A DNA stretch of 64,000 nucleotides from Halostagnicola larsenii XH-48 (lineage in GTDB: Archaea > Halobacteriota > Halobacteria > Halobacteriales > Natrialbaceae). How positions within the stretch are numbered: the stretch's first letter is position 1; each line of letters begins with the position of its first letter. Under the pieces are notes generated by a model. That model did not search any database. It was not told the DNA's origin and saw only the letters and a list, made by a program, of their open reading frames with translations. The stretch covers positions 2,542,001 through 2,606,000 of the forward strand of contig NZ_CP007055.1 of NCBI RefSeq assembly GCF_000517625.1. Direction: 5' to 3'. Below, in pieces: positions 33,936-62,251 of the stretch. A program made the translations under genes and the position numbers.

Positions 33936-35204
33936 ATGGACCGGCGAATCGATCGACGGCGCTTTCTCTTGCAGACGGCCGCGGCGGCGGGCGCCGTCGC
34001 CGCGGCGGGGTGTACGCTCGAGGTCGAAGACGACGCCGACCCGAGCGAAGATCCCGTGATGCCTCAGTTTTACGAGATTCAGGACAAACCGGACGCGGTC
34101 TACCTCCCGACACACCGGGAAGCGATGGAGATGCTCGAGCCGGTCGAGGCCGGCGAGTACACGCTCGCGCCGATGCTCTCGTACGTCCACCCGTTCTGGA
34201 TCATCAGCGGCGACGAAATCGAGCGCGAGGAACCCGACGACGGCAACGGCGTCCACCTCATGATCGTCGTCTGGGACACCGAAACCGGCGTCGTTCTCCC
34301 CGTCGACAGCGGGGCACAGCTTCGCGTCGAGAAAGACGGCGAGCAGGTCGGCTCGCCCCGGACGCCCTGGACGATGATCTCCCAGCAGATGGGCTTTCAC
34401 TTCGGCGACAACGTCCCGCTCGCCGACGACGGCACCTACACCGCCGAGCTGACGATCCCGCCGCTCGACGTGCGGACGACCGGCGATCTCGAGGGAAAGT
34501 TCGCAGAGACGGAGACCGCCTCCTTCGAGTTCGAGTACGATGCGGAGTTCCGCAACGAAATTCCCGCCCGGGTCGAGTATCTCGAGCGCGAGGAGTGGGG
34601 CGAACCCGGCGCGCTCGAGCCGATGAGCCACGGCAGCGGCGGAGACGACGGAGGCAGTACCGACAGCGGTGATGACGACGGCGAGCACGAACCCGACGGC
34701 AACGAGAGCGGCCACGAGCACAGCGGCGACGGCCAGACAGACGCGGACGAGGACGGTGGACACGTCCCGTTCTCGGCGTTGCCGCCCGCCGAGGAGTATC
34801 CTGGAACCGGCCTCGAGCCGCACGACGGCGAGGGCGAGGCCACGAGCGGCGACGCCGCCTTTGTGGCGAGACTCGTAGAGTCCGGATCGCGGTTCGTCGA
34901 GGGGGACGAACGGTACCTCCTCGTATCCCCCAGAACGCCCTACAACCGGGTGCCGCTGGCGGACATGTCCATGACGGCCGCGGTTTCGGGCGTCGAATCC
35001 GCAGATTCCGTCGCGCTCGAGCAGACGATCGACGGCGAGTACGGCATCCACTACGGGGCCGCACTCGCGGGCGTCGAACCCGGCGACACGGTGACGATCG
35101 AGATCGACTCGTTCCCGCAGGTCGCGCGCCACCAGGGGTACGACACGGCGTTTTTCGACATGCCCCCGGTCGAACTGACGGTGCCGGAATCGGTCGAACA
35201 ATGA
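33936..35204 (+). CDS. Tat lipoprotein with p19/Tp34-like metal-binding domains (DUF7350-like)
   Basis: 422 residues. The Tat signal is RRRFLLQTAA with lipobox Cys near residue 26 (AAAGC). The first domain has the p19 layout: VHLMIVVWD, then QMGFHFGDNVPLADDGTYTAEL, resembling the metal-binding GxHYGDN turn of periplasmic p19/Tp34 proteins linked to iron uptake. A Gly/Asp/His/Glu-rich linker (about 228-270) with several histidines separates a second, related beta domain. Located 100 bases after the DyP-like gene and overlapping the cohesin-like gene. Confidence 0.78.
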   Translation: MDRRIDRRRFLLQTAAAAGAVAAAGCTLEVEDDADPSEDPVMPQFYEIQDKPDAVYLPTHREAMEMLEPVEAGEYTLAPMLSYVHPFWIISGDEIEREEPDDGNGVHLMIVVWDTETGVVLPVDSGAQLRVEKDGEQVGSPRTPWTMISQQMGFHFGDNVPLADDGTYTAELTIPPLDVRTTGDLEGKFAETETASFEFEYDAEFRNEIPARVEYLEREEWGEPGALEPMSHGSGGDDGGSTDSGDDDGEHEPDGNESGHEHSGDGQTDADEDGGHVPFSALPPAEEYPGTGLEPHDGEGEATSGDAAFVARLVESGSRFVEGDERYLLVSPRTPYNRVPLADMSMTAAVSGVESADSVALEQTIDGEYGIHYGAALAGVEPGDTVTIEIDSFPQVARHQGYDTAFFDMPPVELTVPESVEQ

Positions 35205-35836
35205 CGGAGACACGGACTCGAGTCACAGTGGTACTCGCAACTTTGCTGCTTGCCGCCGGCCTCGTCGTCGCGCCGGTCAGCGCCGGACACAGCCCCGGCG
35301 TCTACAGCTTCGAACCGGACGACGCCAGCGTGGCCGCCGGCGAAACCGTCGCGGTCGACGTCGTCCTCTCGGCCAACCGAACCCCCGCCGGCGACGGAAT
35401 CAGCGAGACGGGGTTCACCGTCGACTACGACGCGGATCGGTTCTCGGTCGTCGACGTCGAACACGGCTCGTGGTTCGAGGACGGCGACGCGTCGATCGAC
35501 TCGGAAATCAATCGCTCGAGCGCGGTCGACGAGGACGTGGGCACCGTCTCGGTCGAAACCGCACTCGAGTCGCCCGGCAATGGGGTTGCCAACAGCGCAC
35601 CCGTCGCGACGATCACGTTCCAGGCCGACGAGGACGCGGATGACGGCGAGAGTGAGCTCACGTTCGCGAACAGCTCCGCGGCGACACCCTCGAGTCCGAC
35701 GCCGACCATTACTAATACGGGGACTCTCGAGGTCGGCGAGGGCGTGCTGGGCGCGAGCGGATTCGGCCCGATAGTCGCGCTCGGATCGCTGTTGCTCGCG
35801 GCACTCGTGGGTCTCCGACGGGCGAAAAACGACTAA
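35201..35836 (+). CDS. Secreted cohesin-like protein with PGF-CTERM-like tail
   Basis: 211 residues with an N-terminal signal (VVLATLLLAAGLVVAPVSAG), a cohesin-like beta domain (ETVAVDVVLSANRTPAGDG ... GFTVDYDADRFSVVDVE), a Ser/Thr/Pro-rich stretch and a C-terminal GFGPIVALGSLLLAALVGLRR that resembles a PGF-CTERM sorting tail recognised by archaeosortase. ATGA overlap with the p19-like gene shows co-transcription. It may anchor or scaffold the neighbouring lipoproteins (inference). Confidence 0.8.
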   Translation: MTETRTRVTVVLATLLLAAGLVVAPVSAGHSPGVYSFEPDDASVAAGETVAVDVVLSANRTPAGDGISETGFTVDYDADRFSVVDVEHGSWFEDGDASIDSEINRSSAVDEDVGTVSVETALESPGNGVANSAPVATITFQADEDADDGESELTFANSSAATPSSPTPTITNTGTLEVGEGVLGASGFGPIVALGSLLLAALVGLRRAKND

Positions 35837-36406
35837 CGTGACCCTCGACAGATCTACTTCAGTTCGCTCGAGTGGTCTCGAAATGGTTGCCTGAATCGTC
35901 CAGAACAGAGTACGGCGGGATTGCTCCATCTCGGACAATTCACGTGCGGTGGCGCGCGCTCAGAAGCGGGTCGCGATAGCGATCCGCGAGTGAAACTGCG
36001 CGAGGGATGAGCGAACGAGGTTACGAGTGAGCGAATCGGTTGGGGAGGACGTGGAAATCCTAGTTGCCAGCATCAGTAGTGTTCTCGAGCACTCCAGCAA
36101 TCCTATTGTACAAGTTGGGTACGACATTTTTCTCGAGAGTGCACATTATTCCCGGTCTGAAACAGTAGTTATATGACACTACAGGGCGTTGGATCAAATG
36201 GAAGCCACACACTCCGCGAGACGGGGGCGTTTTGTATTGAAATGCCCCGGGTGCTGAAGACACCCGAGACGTGGCTTCCAACCCGGATATGGATCGGTTG
36301 CCATGATTGGATTACTTCTCCGCGGGCTTAAACATCCCGTCCGACAGACGAATCGAAGTCGATTACAGCTAGCTACCGGTTACGCTATCAGAGGTGAACA
36401 CGAGCG
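35837..36406. other. Intergenic stretch entering the accessory island
   Basis: 570 bases without a supportable gene. The middle holds low-complexity words (gagtgagcga, gcgagggatgagcgaacga). The structured repeat at 36199-36281 is the main feature. The last 100 bases carry cttaaac (36325) as a weak promoter candidate for the next gene. Confidence 0.6.
36199..36281 (-). repeat. Structured repeat, copy 1 (outer stem plus two hairpins)
   Basis: Read on the minus strand, a perfect 10-base terminal inverted repeat TGGAAGCCAC / GTGGCTTCCA (plus-strand 36271-36280 and 36199-36208) encloses hairpin 1, CGGGTG-TCTTCAG-CACCCG, and hairpin 2, GGGC ... GCCC. A second copy with the same architecture and about 30 shared bases lies at 62008-62092 in the other orientation. 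No transposase is nearby. Candidates are a miniature transposable element or the conserved end of an IS605-like element, or a small structured RNA. Confidence 0.8.
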
Positions 36407-36745
36407 ATGACCGCGTCGACGGACAGTCTCGTCGTGGATATCGTTCGTACTCTCGAGAAACAGGGCATACCTCGAGAGTCCTACCAGCTCGGCAGGGAGT
36501 TCGACCCCGAAGCACTCGCCCGGCTACTCGACTCCGGAGGCGGTACGGTCGAGGTCCGCCTCGAGGTGCGCGGCGTGTCGCTCGTCGTGACGAAGCAAGG
36601 TGTCTGGGTGACCGACGAGCCGCCGTCGGAACGGCCCGAGTGCCCTCACTGTGGGCTCCCGGTCAGCGCCGTCGTTCAACTCGTTCCAACCCACCACACC
36701 GCCTATCCTTGTGGATGTCGGGTTCGGGGTGACTTGCTCGAGTAG
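36407..36745 (+). CDS. HalOD1-like domain protein with C-terminal zinc ribbon
   Basis: 112 residues. The first ~75 residues resemble the haloarchaeal HalOD1 output domain (SLVVDIVRTLEKQGIPRESY ... FDPEALARLLDSGGGTVEVR). The C-terminus has CPHCGLP and, 30 residues on, CGCR, a likely zinc ribbon. HalOD1 domains are thought to act in signal output. The last ~75 bases of the gene and its downstream flank are duplicated in decayed form at 37411-37517. Confidence 0.72.
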   Translation: MTASTDSLVVDIVRTLEKQGIPRESYQLGREFDPEALARLLDSGGGTVEVRLEVRGVSLVVTKQGVWVTDEPPSERPECPHCGLPVSAVVQLVPTHHTAYPCGCRVRGDLLE

Positions 36746-61563: not shown

Positions 61564-61857
61564 TCAAGCGATTTCACCACTCAACGCCAACAGCCCGATC
61601 CCGGCCGCACAGTCGGGACAGCACGCTCGAGCGACCGCGGCGTACCGATCCTCGAGTGCCGGACACGGGCGGGTCGAAACGCGGAGCACGCGGTCGGCGG
61701 GGATCGACTCGTCGCACCGATAACAGACGGTCGGGGAGGATCGGTCGGCGCTCGAGTGGCCGCCGGAATCGTGGGTGCTCGAGGTATCCGTGATATTGGT
61801 GTTTCTCGAGTCCGTGCCAGCGGTTTTCGAGTCCGTTTCGTCGGGACTCGAAGTCAT
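61564..61857 (-). CDS. Small zinc-ribbon protein
   Basis: 97 residues. The first 40 are Ser/Thr/Asp-rich and probably disordered. Two Cys clusters, CYRC and CCPDC (the latter with an extra Cys 15 residues before), can make a zinc ribbon. One of many small haloarchaeal zinc-finger proteins. Converges with the DUF6498 gene. Confidence 0.7.
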   Translation of the reverse strand: MTSSPDETDSKTAGTDSRNTNITDTSSTHDSGGHSSADRSSPTVCYRCDESIPADRVLRVSTRPCPALEDRYAAVARACCPDCAAGIGLLALSGEIA

Positions 61858-62007
61858 ACGAATCGCCTCCAGTACGCCTCCGAAGCGCGATTCCGCCGAG
61901 AGAGGCGGTCGCTCGAGTTCTCGAGGTGGTCAAACGTGATACTGCGCTGTCGTTCGAGAGTTTTTTGTCTCGGTGGGAGTAAGTAAAGCATGGCACCAAG
62001 TGTTCGC

Positions 62008-62092
62008 TTGGAAGCCACACGCTTCGGGTGTCTCTAGCACCCGGGGCATTTCACGCGTATGCCCGCGGCCAATTCGGCGCGCGCAGCTTCCA
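62008..62092 (+). repeat. Structured repeat, copy 2 (outer stem plus two hairpins)
   Basis: TTGGAAGCCAC is followed by CGGGTG-TCTCTAG-CACCCG (same stem and loop length as copy 1), then GGGCAT-TTCACGCGT-ATGCCC, then GCTTCCA, which closes the outer stem with TGGAAGC. Hairpin 2 differs from copy 1 in sequence yet still pairs. It lies in the 394-base gap between the zinc-ribbon and lipoprotein genes, which otherwise shows nothing recognisable. Confidence 0.8.
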
Positions 62093-62251
62093 TCGTGACA
62101 GTTAGTCTGAAGTATAATATACCTACTGGTACGGGATGGAAGAAGGGGTTCTGGGGAGGGGAAAGAAGGTGGTTTGGCTGGGAGTTGCCGTGCTCGAGGG
62201 GCTATGATTTTACTTTGGATCAGTTGCAGGGTGCTCGAGATTAGGTGGTAC

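Follow-up and report, generated by a model that had tools for sequence, protein, structure and literature searches.

A candidate riboswitch-like mRNA leader ahead of small zinc-finger operons in haloarchaea

What is a short, strongly paired stretch of DNA doing twice, in opposite orientations, in one part of a haloarchaeal genome? The window analyzed here (64,000 nucleotides of Halostagnicola larsenii XH-48) carries two copies of an ~83-base element, which an earlier note had placed at 36199-36281 and 62008-62092 and had suggested might be a miniature palindromic transposable element, an IS605-like end or a small structured RNA. Both copies are found at these positions, with the shared blocks and paired stems described there. 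Our analysis suggests that the element is probably the 5´ end of an mRNA leader that would control translation in a riboswitch-like way, with no Shine-Dalgarno sequence involved.

Strand, covariation and distribution of the element

Against 200 dinucleotide shuffles, each 83-85 nt copy folds better than every one of them, whichever strand is taken (z -3.2 to -5.8). In copies found by a plain sequence pattern, P1 and P3 contain 30 G-U against 5 A-C combinations on the functional strand, and several stem positions that read as A-C mismatches on the strand considered originally are G-U pairs on the opposite one. A covariance model from 22 sequences, R1, matches copy 1 (36200-36279) with 74.9 bits (E 6.9e-18) on the plus strand versus 17.5 on the other, and copy 2 (62010-62091) with 59.7 bits (E 1e-13) on the minus strand, the other strand giving only an offset 13.7-bit match. 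The G-U excess and the bit scores thus identify the RNA strand as plus for copy 1 and minus for copy 2: the opposite orientations stand, but the functional strand of each copy is the complement of the one first read. A candidate promoter on that first strand, TTTAAG/TTTATA, was rejected, as it consists of Leu/Tyr-Lys codons of a micro-ORF read backwards and is lost in copy 2.

The pair in the window belongs to a much larger family. A sequence search of the same genome returned 14 similar copies at dispersed chromosomal sites, and the covariance model found 15, not two; three sister genomes have 11-15 copies each by the same approach. R1 matches occur in 80 of the 125 genomes of the family and in 25 of its 29 genera, with up to 33 copies per genome. 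A broader model, R2, built from weaker R1 matches in other families, detects the element (E <= 0.001) in 194 of 391 sampled haloarchaeal genomes and 66 of 86 genera, and all 37 matching genomes of a phylum-wide sample belong to the haloarchaeal order. Distant copies retain the TATA box, the junction and the AUG. No Rfam 15 family matched at or near its gathering score.

Covariation across the family is strong. Across 38 diverse sequences, both partners vary in 17 of the 21 pairs and 94.5% of cells pair, with a covariation score of 0.435 versus 0.148 for shuffled alignments and at most 0.109 for slid structures; these values come from an alignment that was fitted to the structure, and model alignments lean towards structure. 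The G-U count and the TATA spacing, ORF start and alternative helix described below are independent supports, because the model contains none of them. The earlier suspicion of selection on structure was therefore right in kind.

A probable leader in fixed order with a promoter and a small operon

When copies are aligned, conservation extends from ~50 nt on one side to well beyond the other. The conserved unit is thus larger than the ~83 bases and runs from a promoter ~50 nt upstream into the following ORFs. The Tat lipoprotein genes near both copies, to which the earlier note had drawn attention, are incidental; the neighbor that stays constant is the small operon headed by the leader. As a separate observation on this neighborhood, a lipoprotein-like gene is directly followed by a gene (35201-35836, plus strand) whose 211-aa product contains a cohesin domain (Pfam PF00963, E 4e-11) and ends in a hydrophobic C-terminus.

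On the functional strand the order is constant: a TATA box, a junction RNA made of P1, an optional P4, P3 and P2, and then, after 10-29 nt, the AUG. The TATA box lies ~28 nt upstream of P1, and TATA-like sites at -36 to -22 from P1 mark 69 of the 70 copies in the Natrialbaceae and 40 of the 57 in other families, compared with 5-7 in control windows (109 of 127 copies overall versus 11-12). We infer a transcription start at the first base of P1 or close to it. The AUG follows P1 by a median of 22 nt in the Natrialbaceae and 17 nt elsewhere, and on this side, 9-45 nt beyond the element, 68 of 70 Natrialbaceae copies and 54 of 57 in other families have the start of an ORF with 24 codons or more; the total of 122 of 127 contrasts with 17 of 127 on the element's other side. 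Most Halostagnicola copies also have a CATTATTCC-like motif ~20 nt upstream of the TATA box (36120-36170, plus strand, in the window), possibly a regulator site common to the operon family.

At the first locus, all on the plus strand, the TATA box TTATAT (36169..36174) precedes a leader core (36200..36279), a three-way junction closed by P1 that is matched by R1 and marked by covariation. Within it are the P1 5´ strand GGAAGCCAC (36200..36208), a P3 hairpin GGGGCGU...AUGCCCC with the conserved UGAA on the 3´ side of its loop (36224..36248), the P2 hairpin GGGUG-CUGAAGA-CACCC with its invariant stem and free loop (36249..36265), and the P1 3´ strand GUGGCUUCC, which doubles as a predicted anti-start strand (36271..36279). 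Further on lie a pre-AUG strand GGUUGCC (36296..36302), complementary to GGC..AACC after P1, a basic micro-ORF of 35 aa, MIGLLLRGLKHPVRQTNRSR... (36303..36410), and the gene for a 112-aa HalOD1-like/CPxCG...PCGC zinc-finger protein (36407..36745), whose start overlaps the micro-ORF stop (ATGA). The second locus, on the minus strand, has the TATA box TATATT (62116..62121), the leader core matched by R1 (62010..62091), a 45-aa micro-ORF, MLYLLPPRQKTLERQ... (61854..61991), and a 97-aa Cys-rich (CxxC) small protein (61564..61857). Its micro-ORF is of the same type and has the same ATGA overlap as at the first locus, but the small Cys-rich protein is a different one.

P1 closes the junction with P3 and P2, and many copies add a variable P4. 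In the Natrialbaceae two unpaired segments hardly vary: UGAA, at the 3´ side of the P3 loop, and GAGAC, which follows P2. The P2 stem is invariant, while its loop of 5-7 nt varies among copies and at the same site between sister species. We therefore regard this loop as free, and the idea that it serves as a specific address was rejected. Many haloarchaeal mRNAs are leaderless. A leaderless peptide starting from AUGGAAGCC inside the leader was dismissed, as its AUG is not kept (AUA, ACG, CCG) and its frame breaks in the loop, and a coding frame LKCPGC through P3/P2 fell on the same grounds.

In the Natrialbaceae, the leader AUG opens a basic micro-ORF of the pattern M....LPRYKRLARQ..R, with lysine at codon 10 in 120 of 122 cases and a mean net charge of about +6. 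An ATGA overlap joins its stop to the start of a gene whose zinc finger has the motif CPxCG...GPTxHxxxPCGC, and among 75 recognised cases the overlap was called at exactly -4 in 53, the scan having reached an earlier in-frame start first in the remainder. A HalOD1-like domain (PF18545, E 0.004, below the cut-off) often stands ahead of the zinc-finger part in Halostagnicola. Codon-position differences are flat over the first codons of the micro-ORF and give no sign of selection on its protein; what speaks for the micro-ORF is that the frame and the overlap are kept. Among the ORFs tested none matched an NCBIfam family, nor did the tested zinc-finger proteins match any in PHROGs. Two of three public plasmid records leave the leader and its small operon unannotated; the match in Halopiger xanaduensis has no annotation at all.

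In other haloarchaeal families the leader stands directly before SWIM zinc-finger genes (Pfam PF04434), genes for small CxxC proteins or other short ORFs. Some downstream proteins (L339, L350, L359) have no evident zinc motif, and we found no common metabolic theme beyond small zinc-finger-like proteins. The association does not work in reverse: only one of the SWIM genes on 12 named plasmids (Halalkalicoccus sp. FCH27, L364) has the leader, and a SWIM gene therefore does not imply one. Other plasmid SWIM genes (L365, L366, L368-L372; Halorussus, Haladaptatus, Haloarcula, Haloferax, Haloprofundus and Halobellus plasmids) have in common a different short hairpin, roughly TTTATNGCCCCCnAAGGGGTGCGGGGC, about 30-65 bases before the start codon; it gives no R2 match and may represent a second leader type.

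Two further observations concern the encoded proteins. Haloarchaeal proteins are mostly acidic; the micro-proteins are strongly basic (about +6) and their partner zinc-finger proteins average about -6, and the two might bind each other, or RNA. Outside the Natrialbaceae (L331-L360), many of the ORFs begin alike (MSTNE-, MATNE- or MTENE-like), with ACGAA ~10 nt after the AUG, in proteins that are otherwise unrelated. This common start may be a further RNA-level element within the beginning of the coding sequence.

The fixed arrangement bears on what kind of element this is. That it is mobile DNA, a miniature palindromic element or IS605-like end as first proposed, has become hard to believe. 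The copies are dispersed, and in Halostagnicola a whole unit of ~630 bp, from promoter to zinc-finger stop codon, is repeated at unrelated sites, so the operon must have spread somehow; but we saw no terminal repeats at the ends of that unit, a promoter with its TATA at fixed spacing and an ORF start at short distance keep their order, and the G-U asymmetry marks pairing in RNA over pairing in DNA. The spread over at least 66 haloarchaeal genera also speaks against this reading, as does the lack of matches among viral contigs (exact pattern) and phages, on which ground a viral origin was rejected as well; the one SWIM protein compared had no viral relative. An empty-site comparison at one locus gave no clean empty site, the far flank not being common to the relative. 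Elsewhere, a HalOD1/zinc-finger fragment (G000 C1:406857-407117) is 65% identical to residues 28-112 of the window protein, with no leader beside it among the matches listed, and is possibly a decayed operon copy.

The other early proposal, a small structured RNA, survives as to structure but probably not as to independence: the RNA is most likely the 5´ leader of the downstream gene, on the strand opposite to the one first read. A small RNA that acts in trans from its own promoter, and to which the following ORF is merely adjacent, would account for the promoter, the multiple copies, the stable fold and the variable, exposed P2 loop. We nevertheless consider it very improbable, given an ORF start at a fixed short distance in nearly all copies, P2 loops that are not conserved between orthologous sites, and the pre-AUG pairing.

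A predicted alternative helix at the start codon

The P1 3´ strand, with the consensus ACGUGGCUUCC, has a second complement in the bases that immediately precede the AUG (GAAGCC). These bases are a copy of the P1 5´ strand (GAAGCC-AUG with P1 GGAAGCC/GGCUUCC), and the P1 3´ strand can therefore pair with either. The copy tracks P1 as P1 changes: GAAACC-AUG occurs with AGAAACC/GGUUUCU, GAAGACC-AUG with GGUCUUC, GACAACC-AUG with GGUUGUC, and GAAAGACA-AUG with UGUCUUUC. Over 43 distinct P1 3´ strands the alternative helix has a mean of 5.43, versus 4.00 after permutation of the pre-AUG sequences (highest value 4.57; 0 of 2000 permutations as high as observed), and outside the Natrialbaceae 5.81 versus 4.22 (0 of 2000), in permutation tests that are inflated by related sequences. 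Many Natrialbaceae copies have a helix that extends over the AUG itself (CGUGGCUUC with GAAGCCAUG); in copy 1 the pre-AUG strand (36296..36302) and the AUG would pair with CGUGGC of the P1 3´ strand. The contiguous alternative helix is weak in some copies. P1 and the AUG-masking helix are, on complementarity and predicted folds, mutually exclusive.

When the P1 5´ strand was blocked in folding, the pre-AUG bases and the AUG became less accessible in 12 of the 13 examples folded. The cost was 0.2-9.8 kcal/mol, and the exception was L343, which lacked the expected masking. For most examples P1 is predicted to be several kcal/mol more stable than the masked state (9.8 for window copy 1), with energies calculated at 1 M NaCl and 37 C versus the high-KCl interior of the cell. 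A regulator must therefore oppose P1, or conditions in the cell must differ. The same stability is what favors a constitutive folded 5´ UTR, that is, a non-switching fold that enhances translation, affects stability or recruits ribosomes, with the pre-AUG repeat put to some other use: the ON fold may simply persist. We think this unlikely, as the P1 3´ strand has stayed complementary to the pre-AUG bases through sequence change in 43 distinct versions, which would be needless in a passive UTR.

The model that we favor is a switch of access to the start codon. The folded leader would be a junction of three arms, optionally four, with P1 as its closing helix. With P1 formed, the AUG would be free and translation ON; with P1 opened, its 3´ strand would pair with the pre-AUG bases, hiding the start and turning translation OFF, the coupled zinc-finger gene included. 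In the Natrialbaceae the second protein would be made by coupled re-initiation from the micro-ORF stop that overlaps the zinc-finger start, and in other families the leader would act directly on genes for SWIM or small, often Cys-rich, proteins. We infer the switching, its ON/OFF sense and the coupling from this anatomy.

As to the regulator, the leading options would be a small ligand or ion bound at the conserved junction, or feedback by the family's zinc-finger protein. The second option differs from the first only in the regulator: a protein, most simply the zinc-finger protein, would bind the junction of all paralogous leaders. It deserves serious attention, though we would not expect it to be the answer. 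Small zinc-finger genes follow nearly all of the Natrialbaceae leaders examined, and SWIM or Cys-rich genes follow many distant ones, whereas the downstream proteins are diverse, some of them lack an evident zinc motif as noted above, and the Natrialbaceae core is nearly constant while the proteins differ. A bolder form of the switch is that the leader is the first natural haloarchaeal riboswitch class, an order-wide sensor of a single small ligand or ion that hides the AUG with no Shine-Dalgarno sequence involved and governs up to ~30 paralogous micro-ORF/zinc-finger operons per genome; we offer it tentatively, as a possibility that may well prove wrong. Zinc as the ligand, which is a guess, would fit the downstream proteins.

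Relation to known leaders and significance

The element resembles translational riboswitches in being a 5´ leader and a junction RNA with near-invariant unpaired bases, and in having a P1 3´ strand predicted to enter two exclusive helices, one of which would mask the translation start. It is a covarying structured RNA in the 5´ leader, on the gene's own strand, and the exclusive alternative helix at the translation start is indicated by sequence, covariation and folding only. In contrast to known classes, it would mask the AUG itself, not a Shine-Dalgarno sequence, is confined to haloarchaea and belongs to no Rfam family. Because it is known here without a ligand, we call it riboswitch-like and not a riboswitch.

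Few archaeal systems are available for comparison. The fluoride (crcB) riboswitch of Thermococcus was named in 2021 as the sole experimentally determined natural archaeal riboswitch (PMC8241225). It too is a natural archaeal leader thought to act on translation, but it is of an unrelated family (no Rfam match here) and serves other genes in another lineage. A synthetic theophylline riboswitch in Haloferax volcanii demonstrated that a folded leader can control haloarchaeal translation (PMC8241225), although it is engineered and unrelated in sequence. We found no report of a natural haloarchaeal riboswitch in the open-licence literature, and a start-site map of Haloferax volcanii led to the judgment that translational control by structured leaders is untypical of haloarchaea (PMC4983044).

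Ribosomal-protein leaders, among them the S15 leader of Halobacteria (PMC7247131), are likewise structured archaeal leaders, and the leader described here may similarly be bound by the type of protein it precedes. It differs in being multicopy per genome and in preceding genes for zinc-finger, SWIM or other small proteins; no ribosomal-protein gene was seen among the downstream ORFs. The proteins themselves are of a familiar kind. Small C(P)XCG zinc-finger micro-proteins are known and abundant in haloarchaea (PMC11241148, PMC6562870; see also Brz, PMC2253796), and the Natrialbaceae downstream genes are of the same kind; we found no description of a folded leader or an upstream micro-ORF for them, including in the text of PMC11241148.

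The leader is an RNA class new to Rfam and is present in multiple copies in many genomes. From its two-state anatomy follows a model, directly open to test, of how access to a start codon might be controlled in riboswitch-like fashion where Shine-Dalgarno pairing plays no part. Small operons in the hundreds, often without any annotation, are marked by it as well, which gives a way into the question of why tiny zinc-finger proteins are so abundant in haloarchaea.
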